The position numbers and the translations under genes were made by a program. Of a stretch of 64,000 nucleotides of DNA, positions 36,418-64,000 are shown piece after piece. The stretch spans positions 199,909-263,908 of the forward strand of contig JAFXAU010000003.1 in assembly GCA_017516865.1 (NCBI GenBank). Direction: 5' to 3'. Numbering within the stretch: the stretch's first letter is position 1; each line of letters starts with the position of its first letter. The notes under the pieces were generated by a model that ran no database searches, was not told the DNA's origin, and worked only from the letters and a program-made list of their open reading frames with translations. Source of the DNA: Bacteroidales bacterium (GTDB taxonomy: Bacteria; Bacteroidota; Bacteroidia; Bacteroidales; UBA1715).

Positions 36418-36478
36418 TTCTCTCGCCTTTCAACTCTCAACTCTCGTCTCTCAACTCTCATCTCTCAACTCTCAACTA
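36418..36478. repeat. Polypyrimidine repeat block (CTCAACTCTC family), copy 1
   Basis: Runs of TCTCAACTCTC alternating with TCGTCTC / TCATCTC. It is preceded by a sequence like TGTTGTCCTCTATTCTCTCG that recurs near 36672, 40130 and 40640. Confidence 0.7.
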
Positions 36479-36579: not shown

Positions 36580-36687
36580 CCCCTTATGATATAACAACCG
36601 TCATTCCGCAGCCGAGCAACGCGAGGCAAGGAATCTAACATACGCTTCGCTACCCAGTCGATCCCCCTCCGTAGTCTATTGTCCTTT

Positions 36688-36728
36688 CGTCTCTCAACTC
36701 TCGACTTTCGTCTCTCAACTCTCAACTA
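36688..36728. repeat. Polypyrimidine repeat block, copy 2
   Basis: TCTCAACTCTCGACTTTCG and related words overlap the stop codon of the T9SS substrate gene, so the repeat reaches the gene end. Confidence 0.65.
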
Positions 36729-39971: not shown

Positions 39972-40695
39972 AGAAATGAGTCTTTGCACAAAGATATAAA
40001 TATTCTCTTACATTCAACACAAAACTCCCCTCTCTCGTCTTTCTACTTTCGACTCATTTGTCTATACATTATAAAGAGATGACAACAGACTACGGACAAC
40101 GGACTACAAAGGCTGTCGTCGGTTGTCTATTGTCCGTTGTCCTCTATTCTCTCGTCTTTCAACTTTCGTCTACTTCCATGAGATCCCTCGCTACGCTCGG
40201 GATGACGGTCGAATAAGGATAAGATAAAGGGAGAAGTTTATCATACGATAATGTTGGAAAGCAGAATGTTCCGACTGAGCTGCGATGCGTTAAGAAAATC
40301 AATGGAGTGCAGCGTAAAAAAAGAATAGCATTGCCCAACGGGGATTTGTGCAGAGGGGCAATTTTATTCTTTTAGCGAAACGCAGTTGATTTTTAGCTGA
40401 GCAGGTCCGTCGGCGGCCTTTCTTTGGGTTCCGTTTCCTGTGGGCATTTTGCTCACGTTCGGCAAAGAAAATACCTTTTCTTTGCTCTCACTTAATCGCA
40501 AAATTCTTTCGCCGCCGAAAGAAATGGAACAAAATAGATTGTTGATTTCTTGTATGACCAAAATAGATAATTTCGAAATAAAAAGCATCTCCCTAGGGGA
40601 GACAGTCGGAACACCTCCGTTGTCCGTAGTCTGTAGTCCGTTGTCCTCTATTCTTTCGTCTCTCAACTTTCGTCTCTCAACTCTCGACTTTCGTC
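39972..40695. other. Repeat-rich intergenic region
   Basis: These 724 bases hold no convincing gene. They contain the promoter of the T9SS substrate gene, polypyrimidine blocks (about 40028-40052, 40146-40172, 40648-40698), words based on GACAACGGACTAC / TGTCCGTTGTCC (40081-40145 and 40618-40645), a GGGATGACGG element (40182-40212), and a GC-richer segment (about 40400-40530) containing CTTTCTTTGGGTTCCG, which resembles a dispersed Bacteroidota intergenic element. Confidence 0.55.
39989..40023 (-). promoter_or_regulatory. Bacteroidota promoter of the T9SS substrate gene
   Basis: On the minus strand TATCTTTG (39996-39989) matches the -7 box and TTTG at 40023-40020 may be the -33 box, with a 23-base gap. 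Its position supports the ATG at 39971 as the real start. Confidence 0.45.
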
Positions 40696-40698
40696 TCA
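40648..40698. repeat. Polypyrimidine repeat block, copy 3
   Basis: CTCTATTCTTTCGTCTCTC, CAACTTTCGTCTC and CAACTCTCGACTTTCGTCTC. It abuts the stop codon of the AAA ATPase gene, just as copy 2 abuts the T9SS substrate gene. Confidence 0.65.
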
Positions 40699-41823
40699 AT
40701 ACGTTACCTCCAACCACCGAGAAAGAAACACATTATAAACAGAATACTTTCGTTCTGTCGGGGTGATGGTTTCGAGCAACAATTCTTTATCCGTCAGCGA
40801 TTCAAGATTACGGCGGGCATTCGTGGCACTGCCAATCTGATATTTTGCCAAAAAATCCGCCGACGTCACACTCTGCACCGATTGTTCCTTTGCCACGGCA
40901 ATGAGCAACCGCCACTGTTGGTCGGTTATCAAATCACGAATCTGCAAGAAATTCGACGTTTCTTTTTCCAATATCTCACGACTCGCCTTTCGGGCTACAG
41001 CTATCGTAACAACCTTGGGACGCATCGCAAATATCTCATTACAGAGCGACTGCGTATAAAACGTATGGCGACGTGTCCAATCAAGAATATAGTCCATCGC
41101 CTCGTCGTCAACCGTGGCAGGCCGGAATTTTTCCCTGATAAATGCCGCATATTTGTCGGCATCAATCTTGCCGAGCGACAGTTGTCGCGTGCTTGAATAG
41201 AACGGTCGTGCCGCATCGGAAAATATTTGAGCCATAATAGACTTCTTACTGCCACAATAGATAATGCTTATGTTGTGCATCTGTTGCGTATATGTCCGAA
41301 GCAATGCTTCAATATTCGTTTCGGGGTATTCCGTTATCTGTTGAAACTCGTCAATGGCAAGCACTACGTGCTGTTTCTGTGCGTTCAAAAAGGTAAACAA
41401 CCCTTTGAGCGTATATTCTTTCTCGGTTGGTGAACTAAAATTGAATTCCACCTGCGGCATTCCGCTCGTCGGGTCATAACTAATGACTGGTCGATAGCCC
41501 TTGAGCAACGACATAAATTTGCCACCTATAGTGGTTTTTTCTGGAAATTCCGCAAGAATAGCTTCCGACAAGGTTTTTATAAAATCTTTGAGCGACAGCG
41601 TGGCAAAAATATCAACATAGATACACGTAAATGGCAATTTTTGATCGGATATTTTATAAAAAGTATGCAAAATCAGTCCTGTTTTACCTAATTTTCGAGG
41701 AGAAATCAGTGTGGTATCAAGACCATTTTGTATGTTCGACAACAGTATCTCTGTTTCTTTCTCCCTGTCGCAAAACAATGCAGGAGACGCGTAGCCCTTT
41801 GCTAAAAACGGATTTTTTTCCAT
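40696..41823 (-). CDS. AAA family ATPase of the archaeal-ATPase (ATPase_2) type
   Basis: A 375-residue protein from the ATG at 41823 (MEKNPFLAKGYASPALFCDRE). Walker A is LISPRKLGKTGLIL (about 33-46), Walker B VVLAIDEFQQI (about 137-147), and YCGSKKSIM is a sensor-like segment. The C-terminal third looks like a winged helix (SVTSADFLAKYQIGSATNARRNLESL). Such STAND-like ATPases are multi-copy in Bacteroidota and their role is unknown. A 3-unit palindromic repeat lies at its promoter (41865-41906). A 5'-truncated ATPase of a related kind lies at the far border of the polysaccharide locus. Confidence 0.82.
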   Translation of the reverse strand: MEKNPFLAKGYASPALFCDREKETEILLSNIQNGLDTTLISPRKLGKTGLILHTFYKISDQKLPFTCIYVDIFATLSLKDFIKTLSEAILAEFPEKTTIGGKFMSLLKGYRPVISYDPTSGMPQVEFNFSSPTEKEYTLKGLFTFLNAQKQHVVLAIDEFQQITEYPETNIEALLRTYTQQMHNISIIYCGSKKSIMAQIFSDAARPFYSSTRQLSLGKIDADKYAAFIREKFRPATVDDEAMDYILDWTRRHTFYTQSLCNEIFAMRPKVVTIAVARKASREILEKETSNFLQIRDLITDQQWRLLIAVAKEQSVQSVTSADFLAKYQIGSATNARRNLESLTDKELLLETITPTERKYSVYNVFLSRWLEVTY

Positions 41824-41838
41824 ATCTAAACGTTTTTG

Positions 41839-41846
41839 CAAATATA
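41839..41846 (-). promoter_or_regulatory. Bacteroidota -7 box ahead of the AAA ATPase gene
   Basis: On the minus strand TATATTTG followed by C matches the -7 consensus, ending 15 bases before the ATG at 41823. The -33 position falls on the first palindromic repeat unit that begins at 41865. Confidence 0.5.
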
Positions 41847-41864: not shown

Positions 41865-41906
41865 ACCTATTTTAGGTTACCTATTTTAGGTTGCCTATTT
41901 TAGGCA
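41865..41906. repeat. Three tandem 14-bp palindromic units (CCTATTTTAGG core)
   Basis: ACCTATTTTAGGTT occurs at 41865-41878 and 41879-41892, and GCCTATTTTAGGCA at 41893-41906. Each unit is a palindrome around TTT, and in the third the flanking bases changed together (A..TT to G..CA), keeping the symmetry. They sit 19 bases upstream of the -7 box of the ATPase gene, where an operator would be expected. Confidence 0.8.
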
Positions 41907-42050
41907 ATGTTTTTTTTAACGACAACAGACGATAACACAAATTTACACATGCCTCTATTCTTTCGTCTCTCAACTTTCTTACGCCAAAATCCGTAATTAC
42001 CCTCAACCACAAAGAACTCCAAATTATTAATCCACAACAACATACTCTGA

Positions 42051-42096
42051 TTTTTCGGTAATTTGAAGATTTATTTTTCGGTGATTTGAAGATTTT
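42051..42096. repeat. Two-copy 23-bp tandem repeat
   Basis: Units at 42051-42073 and 42074-42096 both start TTTTTCGGT and continue with ATTTGAAGATTT, differing at two positions. It lies 28 bases beyond the stop codon of the second LTA-synthase-like gene. Confidence 0.7.
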
Positions 42097-55811: not shown

Positions 55812-56753
55812 TTATCGTTCAATTTTTACAGGATTATGCAAGAAATCATCATATGCCAATCTAATTCCTTCTTCAAGTTCTGTCTTGTATGTCCACCCTA
55901 ATTGTGTTGCCTTACTTACATCCAACAACTTACGAGGGGTACCATTCGGTTTTGTTGCATCCCACTTTATTTCACCTGTATAACCGACAACACGTGCCAC
56001 AAGTTCAGCAAGTTGCTTTATAGACAATTCTTTTCCTGTACCAGCATTTACCGTTTCATTGCCGCTATAATTATTCATGAGGAACACGCATAAATTTGCC
56101 AAATCGTCAACATATAAGAATTCACGCAATGGTGAACCATCGCCCCAACAGGTCACGCTTGGCAGACCAGCCACTTTTGCCTCGTGGAAACGACGAATCA
56201 ACGCGGGCAACACGTGTGAATGCTCCGGATGATAATTGTCGTTGGGACCATAAAGATTCGTCGGCATAACCGATATATAATCCGTCCCGTACTGACGGTT
56301 CAAAAACTCACAATATTTCAATCCCGATATTTTTGCCAAAGCATACGCTTCATTGGTCTTTTCTAATTCAGATGTCAACAAACAAGATTCCTTCATTGGT
56401 TGCGGTGCTAAACGAGGATATATACAACTTGAGCCAAGGAATTCTAGTTTTTTGCAACCATTTTTCCATGCAGAATGAATTACATTCATCTCAAGAATCA
56501 TATTTTCGTACATAAAATCGGCCAATGCATTTTGGTTTGCCATAATTCCCCCAACCTTTGCTGCTGCGAGAAAAACATATTCAGGCTTCTCCTTTGCAAA
56601 AAAAACTTCCACCTCATCCTGACGGCACAAATCAAGCTCGCTATGAGTTCGTACAATTATATTGGAATACCCCGATCTCTCCAGTTCTCGGACAATGGCA
56701 CTTCCAACCATTCCACGATGTCCTGCCACGTATATTTTAGAGTCTAATTCCAT
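55812..56753 (-). CDS. fcl: GDP-L-fucose synthase
   Basis: A 313-residue SDR-type enzyme that epimerises and reduces GDP-4-keto-6-deoxymannose to GDP-L-fucose. The N-terminal [17 protein letters not shown] is the NADP site, FLGSSCIYP holds the catalytic Ser, and [16 protein letters not shown] holds the Tyr-Lys pair. Later [11 protein letters not shown] and EFLYVDDLA are family words. It lies directly downstream of gmd. Also known as wcaG. Confidence 0.95.
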
Positions 56754-56774
56754 ATCTTAAAGTATAAAACAAAG

Positions 56775-57863
56775 TTATTTAACGATTCCTTTTTCCAAGT
56801 ACTCTTCCAAATTCAATTTCACTCTCTTTGCCGCTCCCTCCGATGCTATCTTTGCGATATCTGATTTCACCATTAACTTCACGAGTTCAGCAAAAGATGT
56901 TTTTTGAGGGTTCCATCCTAATATGCGTTTTGCTTTAGATGGGTCTCCGAGCAAATTCACAACATCGGTTGGTCTATAAAAATCGGGGCTAACTTCCACC
57001 AAGACACGACCGGTTGCCTTATCAACGCCGACCTCATCTATTCCTTCGCCCTTAAATTCCAACTCTACACCTACTTCACGAAAAGCCAATAGGCAAAATT
57101 CCCTGACACTATGCTGTTCGCCAGTAGCAACCACAAAATCGTCAGGTTTCTCATTCTGTAACATCAACCACATACATTCCACATAGTCCTTAGCATAGCC
57201 CCAATCGCGAAGGCTCGAAAGATTACCAAGATATAATTTATCCTGCTTTACTTGTGATATGCGTGCCGCAGCAAGTGTTATTTTACGCGTTACAAAAGTT
57301 TCGCCTCTACGTTCACTCTCATGGTTAAAAAGAATACCATTACAACAAAACATATTGTATGCATCCCTATACTCTTTTACTATCCAATACCCATATTGTT
57401 TTGCCACAGCGTATGGACTATACGGATGAAATGGTGTCTCCTCATTCTGTGGAACTGACTCAACTCTACCATACAATTCAGATGTACTCGCCTGATATAT
57501 CTTACAAGATTTTTCCAAGCCACACAATCTTACCGCCTCCTGAATCCTCAGCACTCCCGTTGCATCAACATTTGCTGTATATTCAGGAGAATCGAAACTT
57601 ACCTGTACATGGCTCTGAGCAGCAAGATTATATATCTCATCTGGCTTAACTCTATTTATAACTTGAACTATACCAAGCGAATCACCCAAATCACCATAAT
57701 GAAGATGGAAATTCTTATGTCCTTCAAGATGCGCTATCCGTTCTCTAAAATCCACCGATGAACGCCGAATCAAACCATGTACATCATATCCTTTCTCCAA
57801 GAGAAATTCAGATAAATAACTCCCATCCTGACCTGTAACTCCTGTTATTAAAGCTGTTTTCAT
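56775..57863 (-). CDS. gmd: GDP-mannose 4,6-dehydratase
   Basis: A 362-residue [23 protein letters not shown] (NADP site), [27 protein letters not shown] with catalytic Thr/Ser-Glu, and [15 protein letters not shown] with the Tyr-Lys pair. It makes GDP-4-keto-6-deoxy-D-mannose. The intermediate goes to fcl downstream and could also feed the DegT aminotransferase of this locus. GDP-mannose supply would use the ManA at 15.9 kb. Confidence 0.96.
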
Positions 57864-58582: not shown

Positions 58583-59731
58583 TTATTTTTCACATTGAGT
58601 AAGATATTCACAAAATTCCACAAGACTTCGCTGTATCACACTGCCGATTTTCAGTTGCTCCTTGTACTGCATAATCATCAGTGGACTCATACTGCGGTTT
58701 AATGCAAATCGTACCACATCCATATCAGACTCTTTGCAGAACAATATACCAATGGTGGGGTTTTCGTTTGTCCGTCGTTCCTCTTGGTCAAGAGCCTCCA
58801 AATAGAATTCCAACTGTCCAAGATAAGACGGTTTGAATTCGGTTGTTTTCAGTTCGAATGCAACCATACATTGCAATTGCCGATGATAGAACAATAAATC
58901 AATCTTGAATGTCTTACCTCCTACAGCCACCTTGTGTTCTTGGTCAATAAACAGGAAATCCTTCCCCACCTCAAGAATGAAATCCTTCATATGCGTAACA
59001 ATATCTTTTCTTAACTTTGATTCCTTGTATTTCACAGGCAACCCAAGAAAATCAAGATACGCCGTATCTTTAAACATTACCTTTGAGTTCGGATATTCTG
59101 TTTTCATAACATTGGACTGCACATTTGCACTTCCAAGAAGAGATGTCATTGCGTTTGTCTTAATGGCACGTTCAAGTTCTTTGTTTTTCAGATGTTCGTG
59201 TCCCGCATACAGCATATAGAACAATCTTTCGTTGTCGGTTTTGCAGCGACTCAATATTATTTGATGATTAGACCATCCTGTCGCCAAAAAAACATTAGGC
59301 ATTTGTGCCGTTGACAACGGCACAAATTTGTATGCTTCGTAATCGTTTGATTTTGAATCCGTAATTTGTGCCGTTTCTATTGGCACAATTTTATCGGAAC
59401 GAATCATTTTTGTCTGTTTTAACAGATTCCTGAAGCTATCGTTTGAGTATGTTTCGTAGAGTTGCACCATTTTGTAGATAGTGCGGTAACTCCATCCCCG
59501 ACTTGTCGGGTCTTGAGTATGAATAAATTCTGCCCACCGCCTCACCACACCATCTCCCCACGACGAACACTTAAGTTTAGCCGAAACGTAACCACAAACT
59601 TCCCATATCATAAGCAGTGACTCATTGTCAACAACAGCTATTATCTTATTTCTATGAGCCTGTATAATTCCATAAACTTCAAGGAACTCGTTGCGAATTG
59701 TGTCTGATACTATGCTGTTACTTCCTTTCAT
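58583..59731 (-). CDS. DUF1016 (YhcG) family PDDEXK nuclease-like protein
   Basis: A 382-residue protein. The N-terminal DUF1016 domain has VVDNESLLMIWEVCGYVSAK, VRRWAEFI and GWSYRTIYKMVQLYE. The C-terminal PDDEXK nuclease-like domain has IDLLFYHRQLQCMVAFELKT with Asp and Glu-x-Lys, then KPSYLGQLEFYLEALD. YhcG proteins are linked to mobile elements and defence islands, and are foreign to polysaccharide pathways. Its ATG overlaps the stop of the upstream 13-codon WbqC relic (ATGA). WbqC-start relics flank it on both sides, so it looks like an insertion into a degT-wbqC operon. Confidence 0.87.
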   Translation of the reverse strand: MKGSNSIVSDTIRNEFLEVYGIIQAHRNKIIAVVDNESLLMIWEVCGYVSAKLKCSSWGDGVVRRWAEFIHTQDPTSRGWSYRTIYKMVQLYETYSNDSFRNLLKQTKMIRSDKIVPIETAQITDSKSNDYEAYKFVPLSTAQMPNVFLATGWSNHQIILSRCKTDNERLFYMLYAGHEHLKNKELERAIKTNAMTSLLGSANVQSNVMKTEYPNSKVMFKDTAYLDFLGLPVKYKESKLRKDIVTHMKDFILEVGKDFLFIDQEHKVAVGGKTFKIDLLFYHRQLQCMVAFELKTTEFKPSYLGQLEFYLEALDQEERRTNENPTIGILFCKESDMDVVRFALNRSMSPLMIMQYKEQLKIGSVIQRSLVEFCEYLTQCEK

Positions 59732-63223: not shown

Positions 63224-63253
63224 TGTAGAGACGTTGCGCGCAACGTCTCTACA
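63224..63253. repeat. Perfect 30-bp palindrome
   Basis: TGTAGAGACGTTGCG followed directly by its reverse complement. It lies 12 bases upstream of the Wzt-like start codon. A very similar palindrome (GTAGAGACGTTGC centred) recurs as a dispersed intergenic repeat in several bacterial phyla (general knowledge, not checked). Confidence 0.75.
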
Positions 63254-63304
63254 AATATACGTTTTCTTTCTAATAAACTGTAGTTTGCTATTTATTTTTT
63301 AAAA

Positions 63305-63348
63305 TCTCTCGCCTCTCAACTTTCAACTCTCCTCTCTCAACTCTCTTC
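63305..63348. repeat. Polypyrimidine repeat block, copy 4
   Basis: CTCTCGCCTCTCAAC, TTTCAACTCTCCTCTC and TCAACTCTCTTC belong to the same family as the blocks at 36.4, 36.7, 40.1, 40.7 and 41.95 kb. Confidence 0.65.
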
Positions 63349-63456
63349 TATAAACTAAGCATTGCATAAAACTCCTCATAATTCTTCCCTGCCTCATAAT
63401 TCTTTTTCCAAAAATCGCAGGCATTACGACATGCAAAAAGGACTCATCACCAAATC

Positions 63457-63792
63457 TCAGCCCAAGAAATATGCGGCACTAACCGCAGTTATTGAATCCG
63501 AAAACTGGTGCGTCTGGTTGTCGTTCGAGAGCAGAAACGAGTGTAGCAGCGGCTTGTCGAGAAACTCCTGCAAATTGCGCAGGTGCCGCGCATCAGTAGC
63601 CGAGACGTGCTCCGCCATCTTAATCTCGAAGGCGTAATAGCCGTCCTGCGTTTCTATCAGTAAATCAACCTCTTTGCCATCATGGGTGCGTAAGTGGTAG
63701 AAATTCACATTCGCACGGATATTGTTGGCCTGCTTGTATATCTCGGAAACGACAAGACTCTCGAACTCATTGCCCGTCATTCCGCCGAACAA
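63457..63792 (-). pseudogene. C-terminal (DUF4143) part of an AAA_14-type ATPase, 5'-truncated
   Basis: About 111 residues, from a TTG at 63792, match the C-terminal PDDEXK-like DUF4143 domain of AAA_14 ATPases: GNEFESLVVSEIYKQANNI, FYHLRTHDGKEVDLLIETQD and GYYAFEIKMAEHVSATDARH. The frame is closed by a TGA 21 bases upstream of that TTG. The whole ATPase domain (normally about 280 residues) is missing; the palindromic array at 63799-63946 lies in its place. It is either a decayed gene or one end of a rearrangement. Confidence 0.75.
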
Positions 63793-63798
63793 AATCCA

Positions 63799-63946
63799 AA
63801 ATTTACGCCAAAATCAGAACTACAACTCCCGATTTTACGCCGAAATCTTGCACCTTACTACCAGATTTTACGTCAAAATCAGGCAGTATAAGTATAGATT
63901 TTACGCCAAAATCTTACATACAATGTGTGATTTTACGCGGAAGTTT
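63799..63946. repeat. Array of five 17-bp palindromic repeats at 32-33 bp period
   Basis: GATTTTACGCCAAAATC or a close variant starts at 63799, 63831, 63864, 63897 and 63929 (the first and last are the most diverged). The intervals are 32, 33, 33 and 32 bases. GATTTT and AAAATC are inverted arms around ACGCC. The four spacers are 15-16 bases and unrelated. It is CRISPR-like in layout but with repeats and spacers far too short for known types, and no cas gene is present. Confidence 0.8.
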
Positions 63947-63954
63947 ACACCTTC

Positions 63955-63989
63955 AAAAACAAAAACGGCCGACAATCCCCTTGCCAGCC
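63955..63989 (-). terminator. Terminator of a gene beyond the window edge
   Basis: On the minus strand GGCTGGCA pairs with TGTCGGCC (two G-T pairs) around a 7-base loop, followed by GTTTTTGTTTTT. It would end transcription from a gene right of the window and isolates the palindromic array as its own unit. Confidence 0.55.
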
Positions 63990-64000
63990 GCACTCAACTT

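Follow-up and report, generated by a model that had tools for sequence, protein, structure and literature searches.

Phased repeat arrays upstream of AAA_14-DUF4143 ATPase genes and an orphaned example in a Bacteroidales genome

Described systems closest to the arrays

PDC-S01 is a candidate anti-phage family in which an ATPase is fused to a PD-(D/E)XK domain; the passages of PMC12988326 that deal with it rank it fourth in frequency among defences across prokaryotes and give validation as pending for most PDCs. The corresponding part of a study of rumen genomes presents PDC-S01 as the most frequent single defence locus there (PMC13356809). An upstream array is not mentioned in the passages that name PDC-S01, and no description of upstream arrays for this ATPase family was found in a literature search that reached neither preprints nor most subscription papers.

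Repeats at the promoter of a defence locus have been described for RptR. This autorepressor shuts down a defence island by cooperatively binding three direct repeats that overlap its own promoter, each of which contains a palindrome; it is a stand-alone protein of 79 aa whose site is 6 bp and whose repeat unit is 9 bp (PMC12255303). The arrays presented here resemble this system in being promoter-overlapping direct repeats, typically three, at a candidate defence locus, but here the ATPase-nuclease itself would presumably be the binder and the units, of about 12–17 bp, recur at 22, 33 or 41 bp. Each paralogue also has a private repeat, and the units are unlike the TAGCTA repeats of RptR in both sequence and period. 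The RptR precedent indicates that such operator logic exists in defence loci; regulator and effector would in the present case be combined in one protein.

Helically phased direct repeats are likewise a feature of plasmid iterons, which are bound by an autoregulating winged-helix Rep protein. In comparison to iterons, the arrays described below differ in that no replication role or neighbouring replicon is seen, and in that they belong to multi-copy gene families found mostly in genome contigs. Regular short repeats with spacers are also shared with CRISPR; here, however, the spacers are inherited, cas genes are absent, and the array is located at a promoter.

The window array and its gene remnant

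The window, which is the whole stretch of 64,000 nucleotides analysed here, contains an array of five 17-bp units with spacings of 32, 33, 33 and 32 bp, spanning positions 63799–63945. From the sequence and a unit scan, all units were placed on the minus strand: unit 1, degenerate and farthest from the gene, at 63929–63945 (AACTTCCGCGTAAAATC); unit 2 at 63897–63913 (GATTTTGGCGTAAAATC); unit 3 at 63864–63880 (GATTTTGACGTAAAATC); unit 4 at 63831–63847 (GATTTCGGCGTAAAATC); and unit 5, closest to the gene remnant, at 63799–63815 (GATTTTGGCGTAAATTT). The first-pass annotation had described five such units at a 32–33-bp period, and these are confirmed; the repeat score of the array is 11, whereas the highest of 3000 dinucleotide shuffles was 6 and none (0/3000) equalled it. 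Searching the 2.66-Mb genome (31 contigs) for the 17-mer returned this single periodic array and no second one, with other motif matches having 2–3 mismatches.

The units had initially been read as palindromes that change in the centre and keep their arms, as though selection acted on symmetry. Inverted symmetry is indeed partly present but is imperfect, with 3–6 of the 8 symmetric positions pairing in each unit of the window array. The proposed pattern of conservation is not confirmed: among 41 units from 13 arrays of the window-array clade, neither CGTAA nor the T at position 16 ever varies and a G precedes the core in 40 units, whereas the outer arm positions are variable. As the core is asymmetric and units occur in both orientations in some relatives of the window array, symmetry is not the most conserved feature of the unit, contradicting it as the main signal of selection.

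The spacers, at first thought to be unrelated, share approximately 47% identity within arrays of this clade, and one of them (TGGTAGTAAGGTGCAA) is shared without change by the window and the relatives L033 and L050, indicating that spacers are inherited, with no new acquisition. Spacer memory of any kind, CRISPR or other, was rejected on this basis. The locus does have short palindromes separated by 15–16 bp in the manner of a CRISPR-like or new repeat-spacer locus, but this reading is scarcely credible given that the spacers are vertically inherited and partly alike, that no adaptation genes are found among the array neighbours, that most units lie 5′ of the promoter −7 box, and that there is no Rfam match. 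The last two observations also led to the rejection of an RNA element; as RNA, the array strand gives a good fold (z −4.85) owing to its palindromes. A coding repeat was rejected as well, since most array frames contain stops and the conserved site is 5′ of the start codon. A decayed minisatellite or slippage repeat without function would be consistent with inexact units and variable copy number; however, the unit is conserved between arrays of the clade where spacer and flank are not (81% identity for units, 42% for spacers), the same period is kept within a clade from Bacteroidales to Treponema, and control genes lack arrays, making this explanation highly improbable.

Adjacent to the array is an ORF of 111 aa with a TTG start (63457–63792, minus strand), identified by Pfam and similarity as the C-terminal PD-(D/E)XK-like half of DUF4143. 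It matches the Pfam DUF4143 profile (6e-12) at positions 106–159 of 160, the final third, and is 94% identical to residues 311–419 of L050. The ATPase half was already noted to be missing, which Pfam confirms, and the winged helix is missing too. When the window is aligned to L033, L034 and L050 by blastn, the array side and the portion from codon 311 onward align separately, and the fusion point is located at 63786–63798 (minus strand), where the array is joined at the equivalent of codon ~311 of intact relatives. Because of this direct fusion, the promoter −7 box, start codon, ATPase domain and winged helix have been lost, amounting to approximately 310 codons. The window gene is a decayed pseudogene of the PDC-S01 family and not a working member, of which only residues ~311–419 remain. 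No intact subfamily member was found in the window genome, the sole match being the remnant itself; with the ATPase and winged helix deleted and no such member left, the window array is a relic. The subfamily is also rare, as a search of 296 further Bacteroidota genomes found the window copy alone.

Nineteen relatives from Salinivirgaceae, other Bacteroidales and two Treponema genomes were retrieved with the remnant, and the ATPase half is complete in 18 of them, the contig of the remaining one (L041) ending inside it. Their order is an AAA_14 ATPase, a winged-helix segment and a PD-(D/E)XK-like DUF4143 half. Nearly all intact relatives, in Bacteroidales and Treponema alike, have an array with a GCGTAAA core at 32/33 bp just 5′ of the start codon. 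The array had been described as lying beside a truncated ATPase, which is correct for the window; in relatives the gene is whole and the array is upstream of its start codon. The window array is the orphaned upstream control array of an AAA_14-wHTH-DUF4143 ATPase gene. Assignment to PDC-S01 is drawn from intact relatives and paralogues, as L033 and L047 and the paralogues L053, L057 and L059 match the PADLOC PDC-S01 models over their full length (E 7e-88) and have the ATPase fused to a PD-(D/E)XK domain, as stated in the relevant part of PMC12988326; the window copy differs in being a broken remnant. An AlphaFold2 model (pLDDT 59) was too poor for a fold search.

On the side opposite to the remnant, the array is bounded by a terminator-like hairpin at 63965–63991 on the minus strand (1374–1400 of L031), as the first-pass annotation had proposed. 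The hairpin is 3′ of an AbiEi/AbiEii pair that directly adjoins the array just right of the window (L031 1424–2835), meaning that the remnant neighbours another defence locus. The locus is within a 293-kb contig among surface-polysaccharide genes, with an ABC transporter, the DUF4143 remnant, AbiEi/AbiEii and sugar-nucleotide enzymes as neighbours of the array. Genes for GDP-fucose synthase and GDP-mannose dehydratase are present twice, flanking the array region (window 55812–57863 and L031 3004–5517), and a YhcG/DUF1016 PD-(D/E)XK gene inside the polysaccharide cluster (window 58583–59731, minus strand) matches the candidate defence family PDC-S02. Downstream of the DUF4143 remnant is a perfect 30-bp palindrome, TGTAGAGACGTTGCGCGCAACGTCTCTACA (window 63224–63253).

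Elsewhere in the window is a solitary ATPase_2 (PF01637) gene (40696–41841, minus strand) that is not matched by PADLOC. Immediately upstream of it, beside a TATATTTGC box, three palindromes (CCTAAAATAGG) are spaced at 14–15 bp (41865–41906), giving a second ATPase family with an array at its promoter. Between this gene and that of a sulfatase-like membrane protein, a 23-bp repeat (ATTTTTCGGTAATTTGAAGATTT; 42050–42095) is present twice in tandem.

Upstream arrays across AAA_14 genes

The window genome has 12 DUF4143 matches, and all ten AAA_14/DUF4143 paralogue upstream regions read in it contain repeats or an inverted repeat, each different. The wider sample comprised 126 non-redundant AAA_14 genes, taken from Bacteroidales and two genomes of Treponema as well as from plasmids belonging to other phyla; it consists mostly of Bacteroidota metagenome assemblies and is small outside Bacteroidota, archaeal coverage being one ambiguous plasmid gene (L175). 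For each gene, the 180 bp that precede the start codon, with starts set by rule from the Walker-A position, were scored against shuffles. Upstream repeats were significant in 51 of the 126 genes at p<0.01 and in 72 at p<0.05, in comparison to 0 and 1 of 105 control genes from the same loci (Fisher p about 1e-16 and 1e-23, respectively). Among a further 63 genes from the window genome, 3 were significant at p<0.01 and 9 at p<0.05, with the strongest scores attributable to intergenic repeats of 14 and 21 bp that are common there and the top matches to dispersed copies of TCAACTC and CTTTCGTCTCTCAA. These 7/14-bp intergenic repeats are found in the window at 36419–36477, 36684–36727, 40653–40686 and 63304–63349, frequently after terminators.

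Array detection is biased toward direct repeats, and a significant inverted repeat was found in 27 of the 54 AAA_14 genes with no significant array (controls 6/64). In total, 99 of 126 genes have an array or an inverted repeat, while 27, about a fifth, have neither by the score used; in members of several clades (Proteobacteria, Thermus), one long inverted repeat replaces the array. The first-pass annotation had regarded repeated co-occurrence with AAA_14/DUF4143 genes, together with a unit number that varies, as signs of a system, and both are found, the number of units ranging from 2 to 6. When 99 relatives were searched for paired units by exact pattern, none was returned, since the unit sequence differs from gene to gene; the two repeat patterns used as searches found arrays solely at their own gene, and a nucleotide search of plasmids had no match.

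The arrays are helically phased. Spacings of 32 bp (48), 33 bp (61), 22/23 bp (18) and 41 bp (3) were counted, and 132 of 146 fall at 21–23, 31–34 or 41–42 bp, against 180 of 900 (20%) in shuffles, the favoured spacings being two, three or four helical turns. Three units are present in 43 of 67 arrays and in 23 of the 28 with a 33-bp period. Sites overlap the gene’s own promoter in 53 of the 61 arrays whose −7 box could be recognised, having a unit within −45 to +20 of it; the window copy has its promoter deleted. A unit close to the Bacteroidetes −7 box in these 53 arrays, and downstream of it in 16, is a placement expected for repressor sites; most units are upstream of the box.

The repeat sequence differs among paralogues and is kept among orthologues, such that array and gene are conserved together. 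Mean z of motif similarity rises from about 0.5 at <30% protein identity to 4.2 at 50–70% and 7.3 at >70%, whereas array-flanking DNA has a z of −0.06 at 50–70%. HTH identity is the best predictor of motif similarity (partial 0.37 given AAA, versus 0.15 for AAA given HTH), although gene pairs are non-independent through shared ancestry and these co-variation figures therefore represent a trend and not significance. Variation in site sequence follows that in the encoded DNA-binding domain. Period, too, goes with the protein: on a quick tree of 95 proteins, labelled solely for arrays with a helical period, it changes 7 times as opposed to 26.6 times with shuffled labels (0/200 as low).

Period was also predicted for new clade members. 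In the L059 clade, all new members that could be read (6/6) have the predicted 23 bp; they belong to other genera and have differing repeat sequences (a seventh locus, L185, was unreadable). The predicted 32/33 bp was found in 10 of 11 spacings of the L057 clade, with 3 of 9 genes passing p<0.05 alone, and the predicted 22 bp in 13 of 19 spacings of the L133 clade, with 5 of 28 genes passing alone. In this last clade, half-sites alternate every 11 bp and TTGAGTAAATTTACTCAA is conserved upstream of L203–L229 in distant Bacteroidota, the proteins being 43–51% identical. Operators for an unrelated trans-acting host regulator could equally overlap promoters, but such a regulator would have to accommodate a different repeat for each paralogue in one genome, as well as a repeat sequence and period that track the ATPase family tree across hosts and phyla; this origin of the arrays is improbable.

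Within one ATPase clade, a 32/33-bp period is also present on plasmids of Glaesserella, Acinetobacter, Vibrio, Criblamydia, Ruminococcus and Parabacteroides, and a Fusobacterium plasmid has two palindromes 32 bp apart. Plasmid arrays with this period span Gammaproteobacteria, Chlamydiota, Fusobacteriota and Bacillota, and two of nine (Vibrio and Criblamydia) are significant alone. The occurrence of some AAA_14 genes on plasmids, together with the resemblance of phased 22-bp direct repeats to plasmid iterons, might be taken to suggest an iteron-like origin, a partition site or a mobile-element end. Most of the genes examined, however, are in genome contigs, stand alone and have differing flanking genes, with no second array seen at the other end and 7–45 AAA_14 genes per genome; no replication initiator is present among the genes read around the window array. 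This interpretation is accordingly very improbable, and the recombination or insertion site proposed in the first-pass annotation likewise found no support.

A predicted autoregulatory operator

The private sequence of each array and its fixed spacing suggest one-to-one recognition between a protein and the array at its gene. The arrays are probably autoregulatory operators (roughly 65%, judged from sequence), at which the oligomeric ATPase would bind its own array via its own winged helix and repress its own gene. The intact ATPase is predicted to bind as an oligomer, with one protomer pair or dimer per unit; units that are 22/23, 32/33 or 41 bp apart share one face of the DNA, which would allow the oligomer to contact all of them. 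Binding to units that overlap or flank the −33/−7 promoter region would then repress transcription of the gene, and a private repeat for each paralogue would permit the 7–45 AAA_14 genes of a genome to self-regulate without cross-talk. The early suggestion of a multi-site protein-binding platform is well supported as a reading of the locus, with the binding itself predicted.

The array could also have a function in defence itself. It is possible, if doubtful, that PDC-S01 is a two-part protein-DNA device, in which a private phased array, typically of three units, serves as assembly and self/sensor site in addition to operator. A more specific version, which is unlikely, takes the array as the DNA part of a defence device on which the ATPase forms a resting or sensing complex; disturbance by an invader, where the trigger may be host DNA breakdown, competing DNA or a phage protein, would release or activate the PD-(D/E)XK effector. 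The stereotyped three-unit arrays and fixed clade-specific period resemble a stoichiometric assembly, regulator and nuclease-like domain are in one protein, and no separate regulator recurs among the neighbours listed for AAA_14 genes. In addition, the PDC-S01 family is flagged as anti-phage in the part of PMC12988326 that treats it, and a Thermus AAA_14/DUF4143 gene was up 6.6-fold with a plasmid when Argonaute was present (PMC4406477). A role beyond regulation has nevertheless left no sign, and simple repression accounts for the promoter overlap. Should the two-part device be correct, dozens of orthogonal PDC-S01 copies could coexist per genome.

Under the autoregulatory reading or the device, the arrays are of use for a family that, going by the relevant parts of PMC12988326 and PMC13356809, is among the commonest unexplained anti-phage candidates and for which no mechanism was found in the literature. 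A cis array that tracks the protein is a biochemical handle, giving a predicted DNA ligand, in sequence and geometry, for most copies examined. The arrays also constitute a large natural set of predicted winged-helix/operator pairs with private specificities that would be useful for deriving a recognition code, and they make it possible to test clearly how paralogous defence genes, despite their abundance, are kept from cross-talk.
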